DNA of 64,000 nt from Lachnospiraceae bacterium (GTDB taxonomy: Bacteria > Bacillota > Clostridia > Lachnospirales > Lachnospiraceae): assembly GCA_017624235.1 (NCBI GenBank), contig JAGANL010000006.1:1-64000 (forward strand), written 5' to 3'. The notes under the pieces were generated by a model, which saw nothing but the letters and a program-made list of their open reading frames with translations, did not search any database and was not told the DNA's origin. Below are positions 20,978 through 45,418 of this stretch, in pieces (positions within the stretch are counted from its first letter, which is position 1; each line of letters begins with the position of its first letter). The position numbers and the translations under genes were made by a program.

Positions 20978-21305
20978 AAAAGGCAGCGGAGCAGCAAGCG
21001 TCCGGCCCGCGCCCATCCCGGCCCTCCCCGTCCCTGCCGCACAGAAAAAATTTCAGGACGACATCCGAACTGGAGTTTTCTAAATGGAGCGCGAAAATAT
21101 GAAATTTGACCGGGCCGGATTCCATGTGCATCCCTGCACAGGGAATCCTAAAATCGGCATCCTTGCCGATTTCTCCCTACATTTCTAAAAGCTCCATCCA
21201 GAAAACGCTCAGTCCGGCTGTATGTCCTGAAATTTTCTCTGTGCGGCAGGGACGGGGAGGGCCGGGATGGGCGCGGGCCGGACGCTTGCTGCTCCGCTGC
21301 CTTTT
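20978..21305. repeat. Large inverted-repeat intergenic element, copy 1 (core on minus strand)
   Basis: Bases 20978-21059 and 21224-21305 form an 82-bp inverted repeat with one mismatch, rich in GC. The 164-base centre contains two hairpins: 21151-21172 (9-bp stem, loop TCCT) and 21117-21149 (GGATTCC/GGAATCC around TGTGC/GCACA). The centre matches copy 2 (33507-33804) in opposite orientation, while the outer arms do not. It fills the gap between the GH3 gene and the next small gene. It has no transposase, so it could be a MITE-like element or a structured RNA. Open frames across it are not credible genes. Confidence 0.85.
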
Positions 21306-26181: not shown

Positions 26182-26256
26182 CGGGGTGTGGCTCAGCTTG
26201 GCTAGAGCGCCTGGTTTGGGACCAGGAGGTCGCAGGTTCGAATCCTGTCACCCCGA
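26182..26256 (+). tRNA. tRNA-Pro (anticodon TGG)
   Basis: Cloverleaf with acceptor CGGGGTG/CACCCCG, anticodon stem CCTGG/CCAGG around loop TTTGGGA giving TGG, and T-loop TTCGAAT. The 3' CCA is not encoded. Confidence 0.95.
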
Positions 26257-26269
26257 TTGCATAACATAT

Positions 26270-26340
26270 GCGGGTGTAGTTCAATGGTAGAACACTAGCC
26301 TTCCAAGCTAGATACGTGGGTTCGATTCCCATCACCCGCT
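26270..26340 (+). tRNA. tRNA-Gly (anticodon TCC)
   Basis: Acceptor GCGGGTG/CACCCGC, anticodon stem CTAGC/GCTAG with loop CTTCCAA giving TCC, T-loop TTCGATT. CCA is not encoded. Confidence 0.95.
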
Positions 26341-26352
26341 TTTCTTTTTTAC

Positions 26353-26381
26353 AGAAAACCAATAACAGGTTTTCTTTTTTT
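26353..26381 (+). terminator. Terminator after tRNA-Gly
   Basis: AGAAAACC (26353-26360) pairs with GGTTTTCT (26368-26375), followed by six T. Confidence 0.85.
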
Positions 26382-26463
26382 AATCAAAAATATACTGATT
26401 TGTGACTAAAAACACACGAAAAAGCGGTTGTTACAGAAAATAGCAAAAAATGAAAAAACATGC

Positions 26464-26492
26464 TTGACAAACAGATGGTTTTCCTATATACT
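26464..26492 (+). promoter_or_regulatory. Promoter of the tRNA Arg-His-Gln-Lys cluster
   Basis: TTGACA (26464-26469), 17 bases, TATACT (26487-26492), 26 bases before tRNA-Arg. Confidence 0.88.
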
Positions 26493-26518
26493 TTTAAAAG
26501 TCCGATGCGACAACATAC

Positions 26519-26592
<74 letters not shown>

Positions 26593-26626
26593 TTCAGAAT
26601 AGGACAGGTCTTCTATTCTGTTTTAT

Positions 26627-26701
<75 letters not shown>

Positions 26702-26744
26702 TTTACACAAGGGTCAAGCAGTGAAGACAAGCCTGGTGTTATAA

Positions 26745-26816
26745 TGGGCTATCGCCAAGCGGTAAGGCACAGGACTTTGACTCCTGCATTCGCTGGTTCG
26801 AATCCAGCTAGCCCAG
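26745..26816 (+). tRNA. tRNA-Gln (anticodon TTG)
   Basis: Acceptor TGGGCTA/TAGCCCA, anticodon stem CAGGA/TCCTG with loop CTTTGAC giving TTG, T-loop TTCGAAT. CCA is not encoded. Confidence 0.95.
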
Positions 26817-26832
26817 TTTCGTGTAGATTTGA

Positions 26833-26905
26833 GGGCGATTAGCTCAGTCGGTAGAGCACCTGACTTTTAATCAGGTTGTCGGGGGTTCGAATCCCCCATC
26901 GCTCA
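26833..26905 (+). tRNA. tRNA-Lys (anticodon TTT)
   Basis: Acceptor GGGCGAT/ATCGCTC (one G-T pair), anticodon stem CCTGA/TCAGG with loop CTTTTAA giving TTT, T-loop TTCGAAT. CCA is not encoded. Confidence 0.95.
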
Positions 26906-29079: not shown

Positions 29080-29159
29080 TGCGGGCAACAGGACTTGAAC
29101 CTGCACGGTCTCCCACCAGAACCTAAATCTGGCGCGTCTGCCAATTCCGCCATGCCCGC
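29080..29159 (-). tRNA. tRNA-Leu (anticodon TAG)
   Basis: Acceptor GCGGGCA with its 3' partner TGCCCGC, anticodon stem CCAGA/TCTGG with loop TTTAGGT giving TAG, a short type II variable arm, and T-loop TTCAAGT. CCA is not encoded. Confidence 0.93.
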
Positions 29160-32330: not shown

Positions 32331-33503
32331 ATGTTAGCAGAGGAAATGAAAAAGCATTTGACAGAGACGATTATTCCGTTCTGGAGCCGTCTGAAGGATG
32401 AGGAATACGGTGGCTTTTACGGATACATGGATCATGACGGAAGGCTGGAGCAAAAGGCCGTGAAGGGATGTATCCTGAACAGCCGTATTGTCTGGTTCTT
32501 TTCCAATGCGTATCTGCTTTTGAAAAATGAAAATCTGTTAAAGCTGGCAGAGCATGGTTATCGGTTTATGAAGGAACACTGTCTGGATACGGAGGAAGGA
32601 GGCATTTACTGGTCTGTTTCCTATGATGGAAAGCCGGAGGATACGACCAAGCATACCTACAATCAGGCATTTGCGATTTATGCACTGTCCTCCTATTATG
32701 ATGCCTCGGGAGATGAGGAAGCGCTAAAACTGGCAGGGAAGCTTCTGAACATCATTGAAGAGAAATGCACGGATGAAATCGGTTATCGGGAAGCCTTTGA
32801 CCGAAGCTTTCATGAGATTGAAAATGATAAGCTGTCCGAGAATGGTGTAATTGCCGAGAAGACGATGAATACACTGCTTCATGTGTTTGAAGCCTATACG
32901 GAGTATTATCGTGTCAGCGGTGACAGTACGGCAAAGAGAAGACTGGAGTGGGCGCTGGACACGATTGCAGAGAAAATTTATAATCCGAAGTTAAGAAGGC
33001 AGGAGGTCTTCTTTGACCGTGAAATGAACAGCATTATTGATCTTCATTCCTATGGCCATGATATTGAAACAGCATGGCTGGTTGACCGGGGCGTGGACAT
33101 TCTGGGCGATCCTGCTTATGAGAGAAAGATGCATCCGATTACAGAGGCCCTGACGGCACAGGTCTATAAAGTAGCCTATGATAATCATTCCCTTGCTAAC
33201 GAATGTGAAAAGGGAGTCGTGGATGAAAACAGAATCTGGTGGGTGCAGGCAGAAGCCGTGGTAGGCTTTTATAATGGCTGGCAGAGACATCATGAACGGA
33301 AGGAATACCTGCAGGCTGCGGAGAATATCTGGGAATTTATCCGAACCTACGTGGTCGATTATAGAGAAGGAACAGAATGGTTCTGGCGTGTTTCCAGGGA
33401 CGGTATGCCGGATCCGGAAAAGCCGATCGTGGAGCCGTGGAAATGTCCGTATCATAACGGAAGAATGTGCATGGAGATCATAAAGCGCAGTAAGGATATC
33501 TGA
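32331..33503 (+). CDS. Cellobiose 2-epimerase (AGE superfamily)
   Basis: This 390-residue cytoplasmic (alpha/alpha)6-barrel enzyme (EC 5.1.3.11) epimerises the reducing-end glucose of cellobiose to mannose, or mannobiose to mannosyl-glucose. Motifs match characterised cellobiose epimerases rather than GlcNAc epimerases: DEEYGGFYGYMDHDG, NSRIVWFFSNAY, HSYGHDIETAWL (catalytic His), WWVQAEAVVGFYNGWQ and WKCPYHNGRMCMEI (second catalytic His). The ATG at 32331 follows GAGGAAG at good spacing; a TTG at 32286 would lengthen it without support. With the GH94 phosphorylase and GH2 beta-mannosidase 20 kb away it fits a cellobiose/mannobiose pathway. A GH130 mannosyl-glucose phosphorylase, its usual partner, is not in the window. 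Confidence 0.9.
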   Translation: MLAEEMKKHLTETIIPFWSRLKDEEYGGFYGYMDHDGRLEQKAVKGCILNSRIVWFFSNAYLLLKNENLLKLAEHGYRFMKEHCLDTEEGGIYWSVSYDGKPEDTTKHTYNQAFAIYALSSYYDASGDEEALKLAGKLLNIIEEKCTDEIGYREAFDRSFHEIENDKLSENGVIAEKTMNTLLHVFEAYTEYYRVSGDSTAKRRLEWALDTIAEKIYNPKLRRQEVFFDREMNSIIDLHSYGHDIETAWLVDRGVDILGDPAYERKMHPITEALTAQVYKVAYDNHSLANECEKGVVDENRIWWVQAEAVVGFYNGWQRHHERKEYLQAAENIWEFIRTYVVDYREGTEWFWRVSRDGMPDPEKPIVEPWKCPYHNGRMCMEIIKRSKDI

Positions 33504-33506
33504 TTT

Positions 33507-33804
33507 GTCACAGTCTGTCCCGCTCCGGCTGCAGCTCGCTCCACCTATGGCCGGCTGGTGTAATTCCAATGCCTACAGACGAACTGTGTGTTTTCTTAAC
33601 GGAGCATTTAAAACCTGAGGGAGAAATCGGCAAGGATGCCGATTTCAGGATTCCCTGCGCATGGAAGCGCATGGAATCCGACCCGGTCGGATTTGTAAAA
33701 GTTTGTTGCTCTGTTTAGAAAACACCAGTCCGTATGTCACATTGAAATTACACCAGCCGGTCATAGGTGGAGCGAGCTGCAGCCGGAGCGGGACGGACTG
33801 TGAC
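33507..33804. repeat. Large inverted-repeat intergenic element, copy 2 (core on plus strand)
   Basis: Bases 33507-33571 and 33740-33804 form a 65-bp nearly perfect inverted repeat whose sequence differs from the arms of copy 1. The 168-base centre shares with copy 1 the hairpin at 33624-33645 (AAATCGGCA-AGGA-TGCCGATTT), the hairpin at 33647-33679 (GGATTCC/GGAATCC around TGCGC/GCGCA), and GTTTTCT...GGAGC boxes beside the stems. It begins 4 bases after the epimerase stop and is followed by a terminator. Confidence 0.85.
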
Positions 33805-33817
33805 CAGGATATCATAT

Positions 33818-45231: not shown

Positions 45232-45418
45232 AGGAGTCCAGCCCGCGTGGGTTTCCGCCCTCCCCAGCTCTGTCGCACAGAGAAAATTTCGGGACGACAT
45301 TCGGACTGGTTTTTGAATGCTCCATTAAGAAAACGCTCAGTCCTGCTGTATGTCCCCAAATTTTCTCAACGAAGCCGTGGCAGGGCGGGCTGAGATTTGC
45401 GCGGGCTGAACAGTCTAT
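45232..45418. repeat. Inverted-repeat intergenic element, copy 3 (short, degenerate)
   Basis: The segment shares with copy 1 the arm pieces CACAGAGAAAATTTC and GACGACATTCGGACTGG (left), and GAAAACGCTCAGTCC and TGCTGTATGTCC (right). The two outer arms still pair in part (AGCCCGCG against CGCGGGCT). The conserved core with two hairpins is missing: the left inner box is followed directly by GCTCCATTAAGAAAACGC. It lies between the convergent CBS and cutC genes, and its right end ACAGTCTAT equals that of copy 1. Confidence 0.75.

Follow-up and report, generated by a model that had tools for sequence, protein, structure and literature searches.

What are the three large inverted repeats that lie between genes in this stretch of Lachnospiraceae DNA (64,000 nucleotides, hereafter the window)? 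A first-pass annotation of the window suggested non-autonomous mobile elements or, failing that, a structured RNA or regulatory hairpin present in several copies. The evidence supports the mobile element and the structured RNA together, and does not support a hairpin regulating its neighbor genes. The best explanation is probably a non-autonomous, MITE-like element that carries a conserved core of two GGA hairpins, a predicted ligand of CsrA, between outer arms that may be re-copied from one another. The window belongs to a genome (G000) whose 2.33 Mb assembly is about 80% complete.

The annotation had described copies 1 and 2 as inverted repeats with a common core in opposite orientation, and cmscan indeed places the core on opposite strands (Table 1); hairpin 1 of copy 1 recurs exactly, as its reverse complement, in copy 2. 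The outer arms match over 80 columns with one mismatch in copy 1 and over 65 columns with three mismatches in copy 2. Folded as RNA, copy 1 reaches −271.9 kcal/mol (z −26.2; 0/100 shuffles as good) and copy 2 −215.3 kcal/mol (z −20.7; 0/200 shuffles as good). Copy 3, rightly called a short relative, lacks the two-hairpin core and gives no Rfam match, and looks like a core-deleted derivative of the element; derivatives of 134-136 bp in the relative G351 are comparable. All three copies lie between open reading frames and none encodes a transposase, as first noted. The possible target duplication at copy 2 receives no statistical support from flank tests across the G000 copies. The same window holds a row of six + strand tRNA genes (26182-26905) and one further tRNA gene on the − strand (29080-29159).

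Table 1. Elements of the window and their parts (positions within the window)
Feature	Positions	Strand	Remarks
Copy 1, whole element	20978-21305	−	arms ~20978-21057 and 21225-21305; without counterpart at the G001 site
Copy 1 core, TwoAYGGAY RNA (RF01731)	21058-21224	−	cmscan 73.6 bits, cut-off 43
Copy 1 hairpin 1, loop AAGGAT	21151-21172	−	read from sequence
Copy 1 hairpin 2, loop AGGGAT	21117-21148	−	read from sequence
Copy 2, whole element	33507-33804	+	arms ~33507-33573 and 33739-33804; without counterpart at the G001 site
Copy 2 core, TwoAYGGAY RNA (RF01731)	33574-33738	+	cmscan 87.3 bits, cut-off 43
Copy 2 hairpin 1, loop AAGGAT	33624-33645	+	read from sequence
Copy 2 hairpin 2, loop ATGGAA	33648-33679	+	read from sequence
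Copy 2, possible 8 bp target duplication, left half	33493-33500	+	by eye; 6 bp outside left arm
Copy 2, possible target duplication, right half, identical word	33806-33813	+	by eye; 1 bp outside right arm
Copy 3, arms and part of basal stem, core deleted	45232-45418	−	read from sequence; without counterpart at the G001 site

The core is a named RNA family: both full copies exceed the gathering cut-off of Rfam model RF01731, TwoAYGGAY. The strict AYGGAY loop form is absent from the window, where all loops read ANGGAN; the motif in the name and the model differ, and it is the model that the window copies match. The annotation's idea of a repeated structured RNA is thus borne out, although a match to a named RNA family had also been listed there as evidence against its reading, and for the core such a match exists. 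The model and the window have in common two GGA-loop hairpins on a basal stem, and comparison shows this conserved fold on one strand; the window arms extend far past the model, and the whole unit is a transposable element. In the passages of the literature that concern it, TwoAYGGAY was listed by Weinberg and colleagues in 2010 as a probable RNA that is probably neither cis-regulatory nor a riboswitch (PMC2864571), CsrA binding by it in Clostridia was proposed in 2014 (PMC4333381), and its structure alone is treated (PMC11701678, PMC11661157, PMC7657543). The Rfam entry types it as cis-regulatory. Our search of the literature, outside supplementary files, found no paper tying TwoAYGGAY to mobility.

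The three window copies are far from alone, which removes the possibility, raised at the outset, that only these three exist. G000 has 37 covariance-model matches, 36 of them above cut-off, and BLAST with copy 2 gave 39 matches there (copy 2's own two included). Among 41 genomes (G000 and relatives), six carry matches (37, 2, 20, 7, 18 and 2). TwoAYGGAY was found in 46 of 298 genomes sampled from the family (44 above cut-off), with 11 to 53 matches in each of 16 element-rich genomes, and in 35 of 393 genomes sampled from the class (26 above cut-off), some of them in other families. A motif scan listed at least 114 stretches, from which 18 named loci were picked for an Rfam scan; TwoAYGGAY was confirmed in 11 and absent from seven. 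The confirmed loci include Roseburia hominis An869, Kineothrix alysoides, Acetatifactor sp. and Lachnospiraceae IMSAGC_002, and also Psychromonas sp. SP041 and a MAG labelled Gastranaerophilales. Copy 2 had no blastn match in phage or plasmid collections, and of 37 loci from a motif scan of viral contigs, the 36 scanned with Rfam (L220 left out) had no TwoAYGGAY. Among the matches listed, many copies in G146 lie at contig ends, which would fit an assembly broken by copies very similar to one another.

Some copies lie close together. By eye, among the matches listed, at least eight pairs less than 600 bp apart point away from each other (− then +), two are + + and none is + then −; close pairs occur in G095 (L336-L339), G009 (L064, L066), G052 (L291), G146 (L335) and G164 (L290), and at L144. 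Their cores are 84-87% identical in a G009 pair and 55-77% identical in the others. Other copies are partial and apparently decaying (L059, at G000:C39:36430-36496, and G000:C4:119219-119343).

The copies are absent from matching sites in a congener. We compared G000 with one congener, G001, whose syntenic blocks with the window show 70-91% identity and in which the three window elements are all missing. Flanking-gene probes from 31 G000 copies located 25 of the sites in G001. For 21 of these probes the two aligned flanks lie 5-219 bp apart, and the element is absent in 21/21; a further probe (L037) has 1376 bp between its flanks, and three more align on one side only. The two copies that G001 does have (C7:63794 and C7:85419) lie away from all probed sites.

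Relative to genes, the dozens of G000 copies face both ways. Taken along the sense strand, the upstream gene runs in the same direction in 14 of 35 copies and the downstream gene in 20 of 33, and with orientation so mixed we reject a cis-regulatory element of neighboring genes. A U-tract follows the right arm (sense) in 8/67 copies versus 1/67 in the control, and precedes the left arm, read antisense, in 6/67 versus 6/67. Since the excess is on one side and not general, we likewise reject an intrinsic terminator as the nature of the element; copy 1 does have a U-tract, and some copies may also terminate. Insertion into terminator loops was also considered and rejected: copy 1 and L020 look so, but G000 copies do not in general have inverted flanks (inverted-flank test: G000 p 0.38, G005 p 0.29, G023 p 0.78, and G009 p 0.0025 on six copies).

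The two hairpins of the core match published CsrA ligands. In the passages on ligands in PMC7652899, the CsrA consensus is RUACARGGAUGU, mostly with AC and GU closing a loop of six bases; for RsmE the contacted loop is ANGGAN; one dimer can span two sites at a distance of 10-63 nt; and very stable stems may hinder CsrA. We applied a strict stem rule to 112 cores from 34 genomes (36 of the cores from G000). GGA falls in a hairpin loop in 99 of the cores on the sense strand, compared with 6 antisense and 12 shuffled; 64 cores have two or more GGA hairpins, copy 1 having at least two, and the spacing between the first two GGAs is 28-30 nt in 52 of these 64. The pattern has exceptions: in G009, neither loop has a GGA in at least four of the seven copies, and in G023 hairpin 1 is without it in four of the nine.

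Genomes that carry the element tend to encode CsrA. CsrA (PF02599) is above cut-off in 44 of 46 carriers versus 13 of 34 non-carriers, the latter taken in list order (p 1.4e-8, kinship ignored). The two carriers without it (G165 and G291) are single-copy genomes, and CsrA is present in every one of the 39 carriers with at least two matches. In the nearer genome set CsrA occurs in 6/6 carriers and 7/16 non-carriers. The sole CsrA found in G000 is a divergent one (58.7 bits). CsrA goes with flagella, and lineage may therefore explain part of the association. We lean toward reading the copies as dispersed CsrA sites or decoys, the two hairpins of each binding one CsrA dimer when transcribed. The likeness to CsrB/RsmZ-type RNAs lies in GGA hairpin loops closed by C-G, spacing in the bridging range and CsrA in the genome; the difference is that here there are two predicted sites per element and many dispersed, mobile copies.

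The outer arms behave unlike the core. Over their inner 45 bp, the two arms of one G000 copy are 95.5% identical, whereas left arms compared between copies reach only 57.3% (shuffled 48%); right arms do the same (correlation 0.91), arm indels are mirrored, and cores are 78.7% identical between copies. The contrast is weaker in G005 (82% within, 70% between) and G023 (85% within, 50% between). Matched arms reach 109 and 120 bp in two G288 copies, and in G154/G652 five of six copies have interrupted arm matches out to 270-326 bp. These very long interrupted palindromes surround the element at L325, L327, L329 and L330 (G154) and L331 (G652); both arms of L330 and L331 contain terminator-like hairpins with T runs after them. 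Arm mismatches were 73 G-U versus 49 A-C in a first set and 41 versus 46 in a second, giving 114 versus 95 when pooled (p 0.21), no clear preference. Because indels are mirrored and G-U is not clearly preferred, we reject selection for pairing as the sole cause of matched arms, and think it reasonably probable that one arm is copied from the other at the DNA level, by palindrome template switching or during transposition. Conserved mismatches persist in the basal stem within the core, and selection therefore acts there. We also considered the arms as guides and dropped the idea, as the copy 2 query matched just element cores or whole elements in G000.

A possible objection to the CsrA reading is that the core is conserved as a DNA hairpin, recognized by a transposase or a single-strand enzyme, that no product at the RNA level matters, and that the CsrA link is a by-product of lineage. 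The mixed orientation to genes, the pooled arm mismatches and the copies without GGA are all compatible with this. We nevertheless consider it unlikely: the GGA hairpins are confined to one strand, carriers and non-carriers differ in CsrA as described, and the mismatches within the core hairpins are 21 G-U versus 9 A-C (p 0.04).

Evidence on ends and target duplications comes from the relatives G351 and G288, whose repeat ends differ in sequence. G351, a single contig, has seven nearly identical copies, with one more in its congener G376, and homology among these near-identical copies stops at CTGYRATTCGTAATAT and its complement. Ends like CTGYRATTCGTAATAT, with at most one mismatch, number 63 in G351 and 51 in G376; controls gave 2 and 0. 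Within the G351 stretches examined, pairs of ends whose mismatches sum to 3 or fewer and that span no more than 620 bp define 22 elements (two further rows, overlapping alternative pairings, were left out). With each end allowed to slip by one base, 11 of the 22 have perfect direct repeats of 8-10 bp directly outside, eight have imperfect duplications (one or two mismatches; one is merely 7 bp) and three have none; looser pairings score at most 3, equal to the weakest of the eight imperfect ones. The TwoAYGGAY form measures 284-287 bp; other sizes are 397 bp and 134-136 bp, and the 134-bp derivative is without the core, like copy 3. In the G351 classes of 397 and 320 bp (L372, L384, L378), the same ends enclose an additional conserved hairpin module.

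In G288, which belongs to the window's own family, the element ends are CAGGGAAATCAATTTT and similar. Eighteen of its 53 copies entered the duplication test, copies cut by contig ends being left out. Scores of 5 or more were reached by 11/18 copies versus 7.8% of 306 mis-paired flanks, and scores of 7 or more by 8/18 versus 2.0%; among these eight, the word at L420 is palindromic and L425 falls within a local repeat, leaving six clean. Flank tests of the G000 copies gave no duplication signal, perhaps due to age. With arm ends taken from local alignment, just 2 of 124 copies scored 8 or more, and direct flanking repeats in a 60-bp window gave p 0.34 in G000, 0.02 in G005, 0.65 in G023 and 0.14 in G009. 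The first-pass annotation had proposed a look for target-site duplications and empty sites; the empty sites appeared in G001, and the duplications in the relatives and not in G000.

The relatives show terminal inverted repeats, 8-10 bp duplications, intergenic insertion, separate multiplication across many genomes and lineage-specific subfamilies. Like MITEs, the element is short, has no ORF and no transposase of its own, occurs in many copies with empty sites and has deletion derivatives; terminal inverted repeats and target duplications are found in G351 and G288, and the window copies are inverted repeats. It differs from MITEs in that a conserved folded RNA is carried across hosts whose repeat ends differ, and in that the outer arms vary fast yet stay matched. 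Because of the empty sites, terminal inverted repeats and target duplications, we conclude that TwoAYGGAY forms the inner part of a MITE-like transposable element, and the non-autonomous mobile element of the annotation is upheld.

In the G351 stretches examined, no paired ends enclose an intact transposase. The duplication length of 8-10 bp would presumably fit DDE families such as IS4 or IS256. At L401 (480-2010, G351), next to an element end that has no mate, there are decayed pieces of Transposase_mut and DDE_Tnp_1, possibly the trace of a former partner; we had taken this locus for an autonomous element with a Mutator-type transposase and rejected that, as it is in fact a mosaic of decayed pieces.

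Copying through RNA, with the reverse transcriptase supplied in trans, would accommodate the conserved RNA core, the variation in duplication length from 8 to 10 bp and arms matched as though one had been re-copied; we hold it to be quite improbable, given that sequence is conserved at both ends, which is typical of DNA transposition. Still less probable, to our mind, is that these are CsrA-sponge genes or terminators of the host, multiplied by the host and not mobile: the CsrA association and the excess of right-arm U-tracts would suit this, but terminal repeats, target duplications and empty sites speak against it, and the absence of any excess on the other side shows that the U-tracts are not general. 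A REP-like element moved by a Y1 (RAYT) transposase, to which the palindromic form, intergenic position and many copies might point, is barely credible, for Y1_Tnp has no match in G000 (about 80% complete) or in the rich carriers G023, G052, G057, G095, G146, G171, G280 and G284, it occurs in 22/46 carriers versus 22/34 non-carriers (p 0.17), and the element shows, in relatives, target duplications, which to our knowledge are not expected of Y1 transposases.

For the MITE-like element with a CsrA-ligand core, we envisage the following. A transposase encoded elsewhere would move the element in trans; where the sense strand is transcribed, the two hairpins would bind one CsrA dimer, and any decoy effect would grow with copy number; copying of one arm from the other at the DNA level would keep the arms matched. 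A bolder extension, which we offer tentatively, is that the family is a selfish MITE acting as a mobile decoy for CsrA: it would both depend on this global regulator and rewire it through dozens of dimer sites scattered across the genome, while its arms would mutate fast yet stay self-complementary by being re-copied on movement or replication. For comparison, the CsrA antagonist described for Bacillus in the pertinent part of PMC7652899 is the protein FliW, not an sRNA.

It follows that an RNA family typed by Rfam as cis-regulatory is the inside of a transposable element, which changes the reading of its gene neighborhoods and explains its uneven, multi-copy spread. The co-occurrence with CsrA makes the CsrA-binding hypothesis of 2014, as put forward in the relevant passage of PMC4333381, directly testable. 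Mirrored, fast-evolving arms make palindrome homogenization measurable in natural genomes.

A last observation concerns the divergent CsrA. It is C-terminally extended and lies at L242 (4359-6962, G000:C18), with similar loci in other carriers (L244-L256); divergent CsrA (<70 bits) occurs in 11/46 carriers and 1/34 non-carriers. A small tyrosine recombinase adjoins it in 10/10 candidates, except that the tested neighbor at L253 is TrpF, and flagellin adjoins it in 10/10 tested. We had considered this second CsrA as machinery of the element and dropped the idea, as it sits in flagellin cassettes; these loci are perhaps phase-variable flagellin cassettes with their own CsrA.
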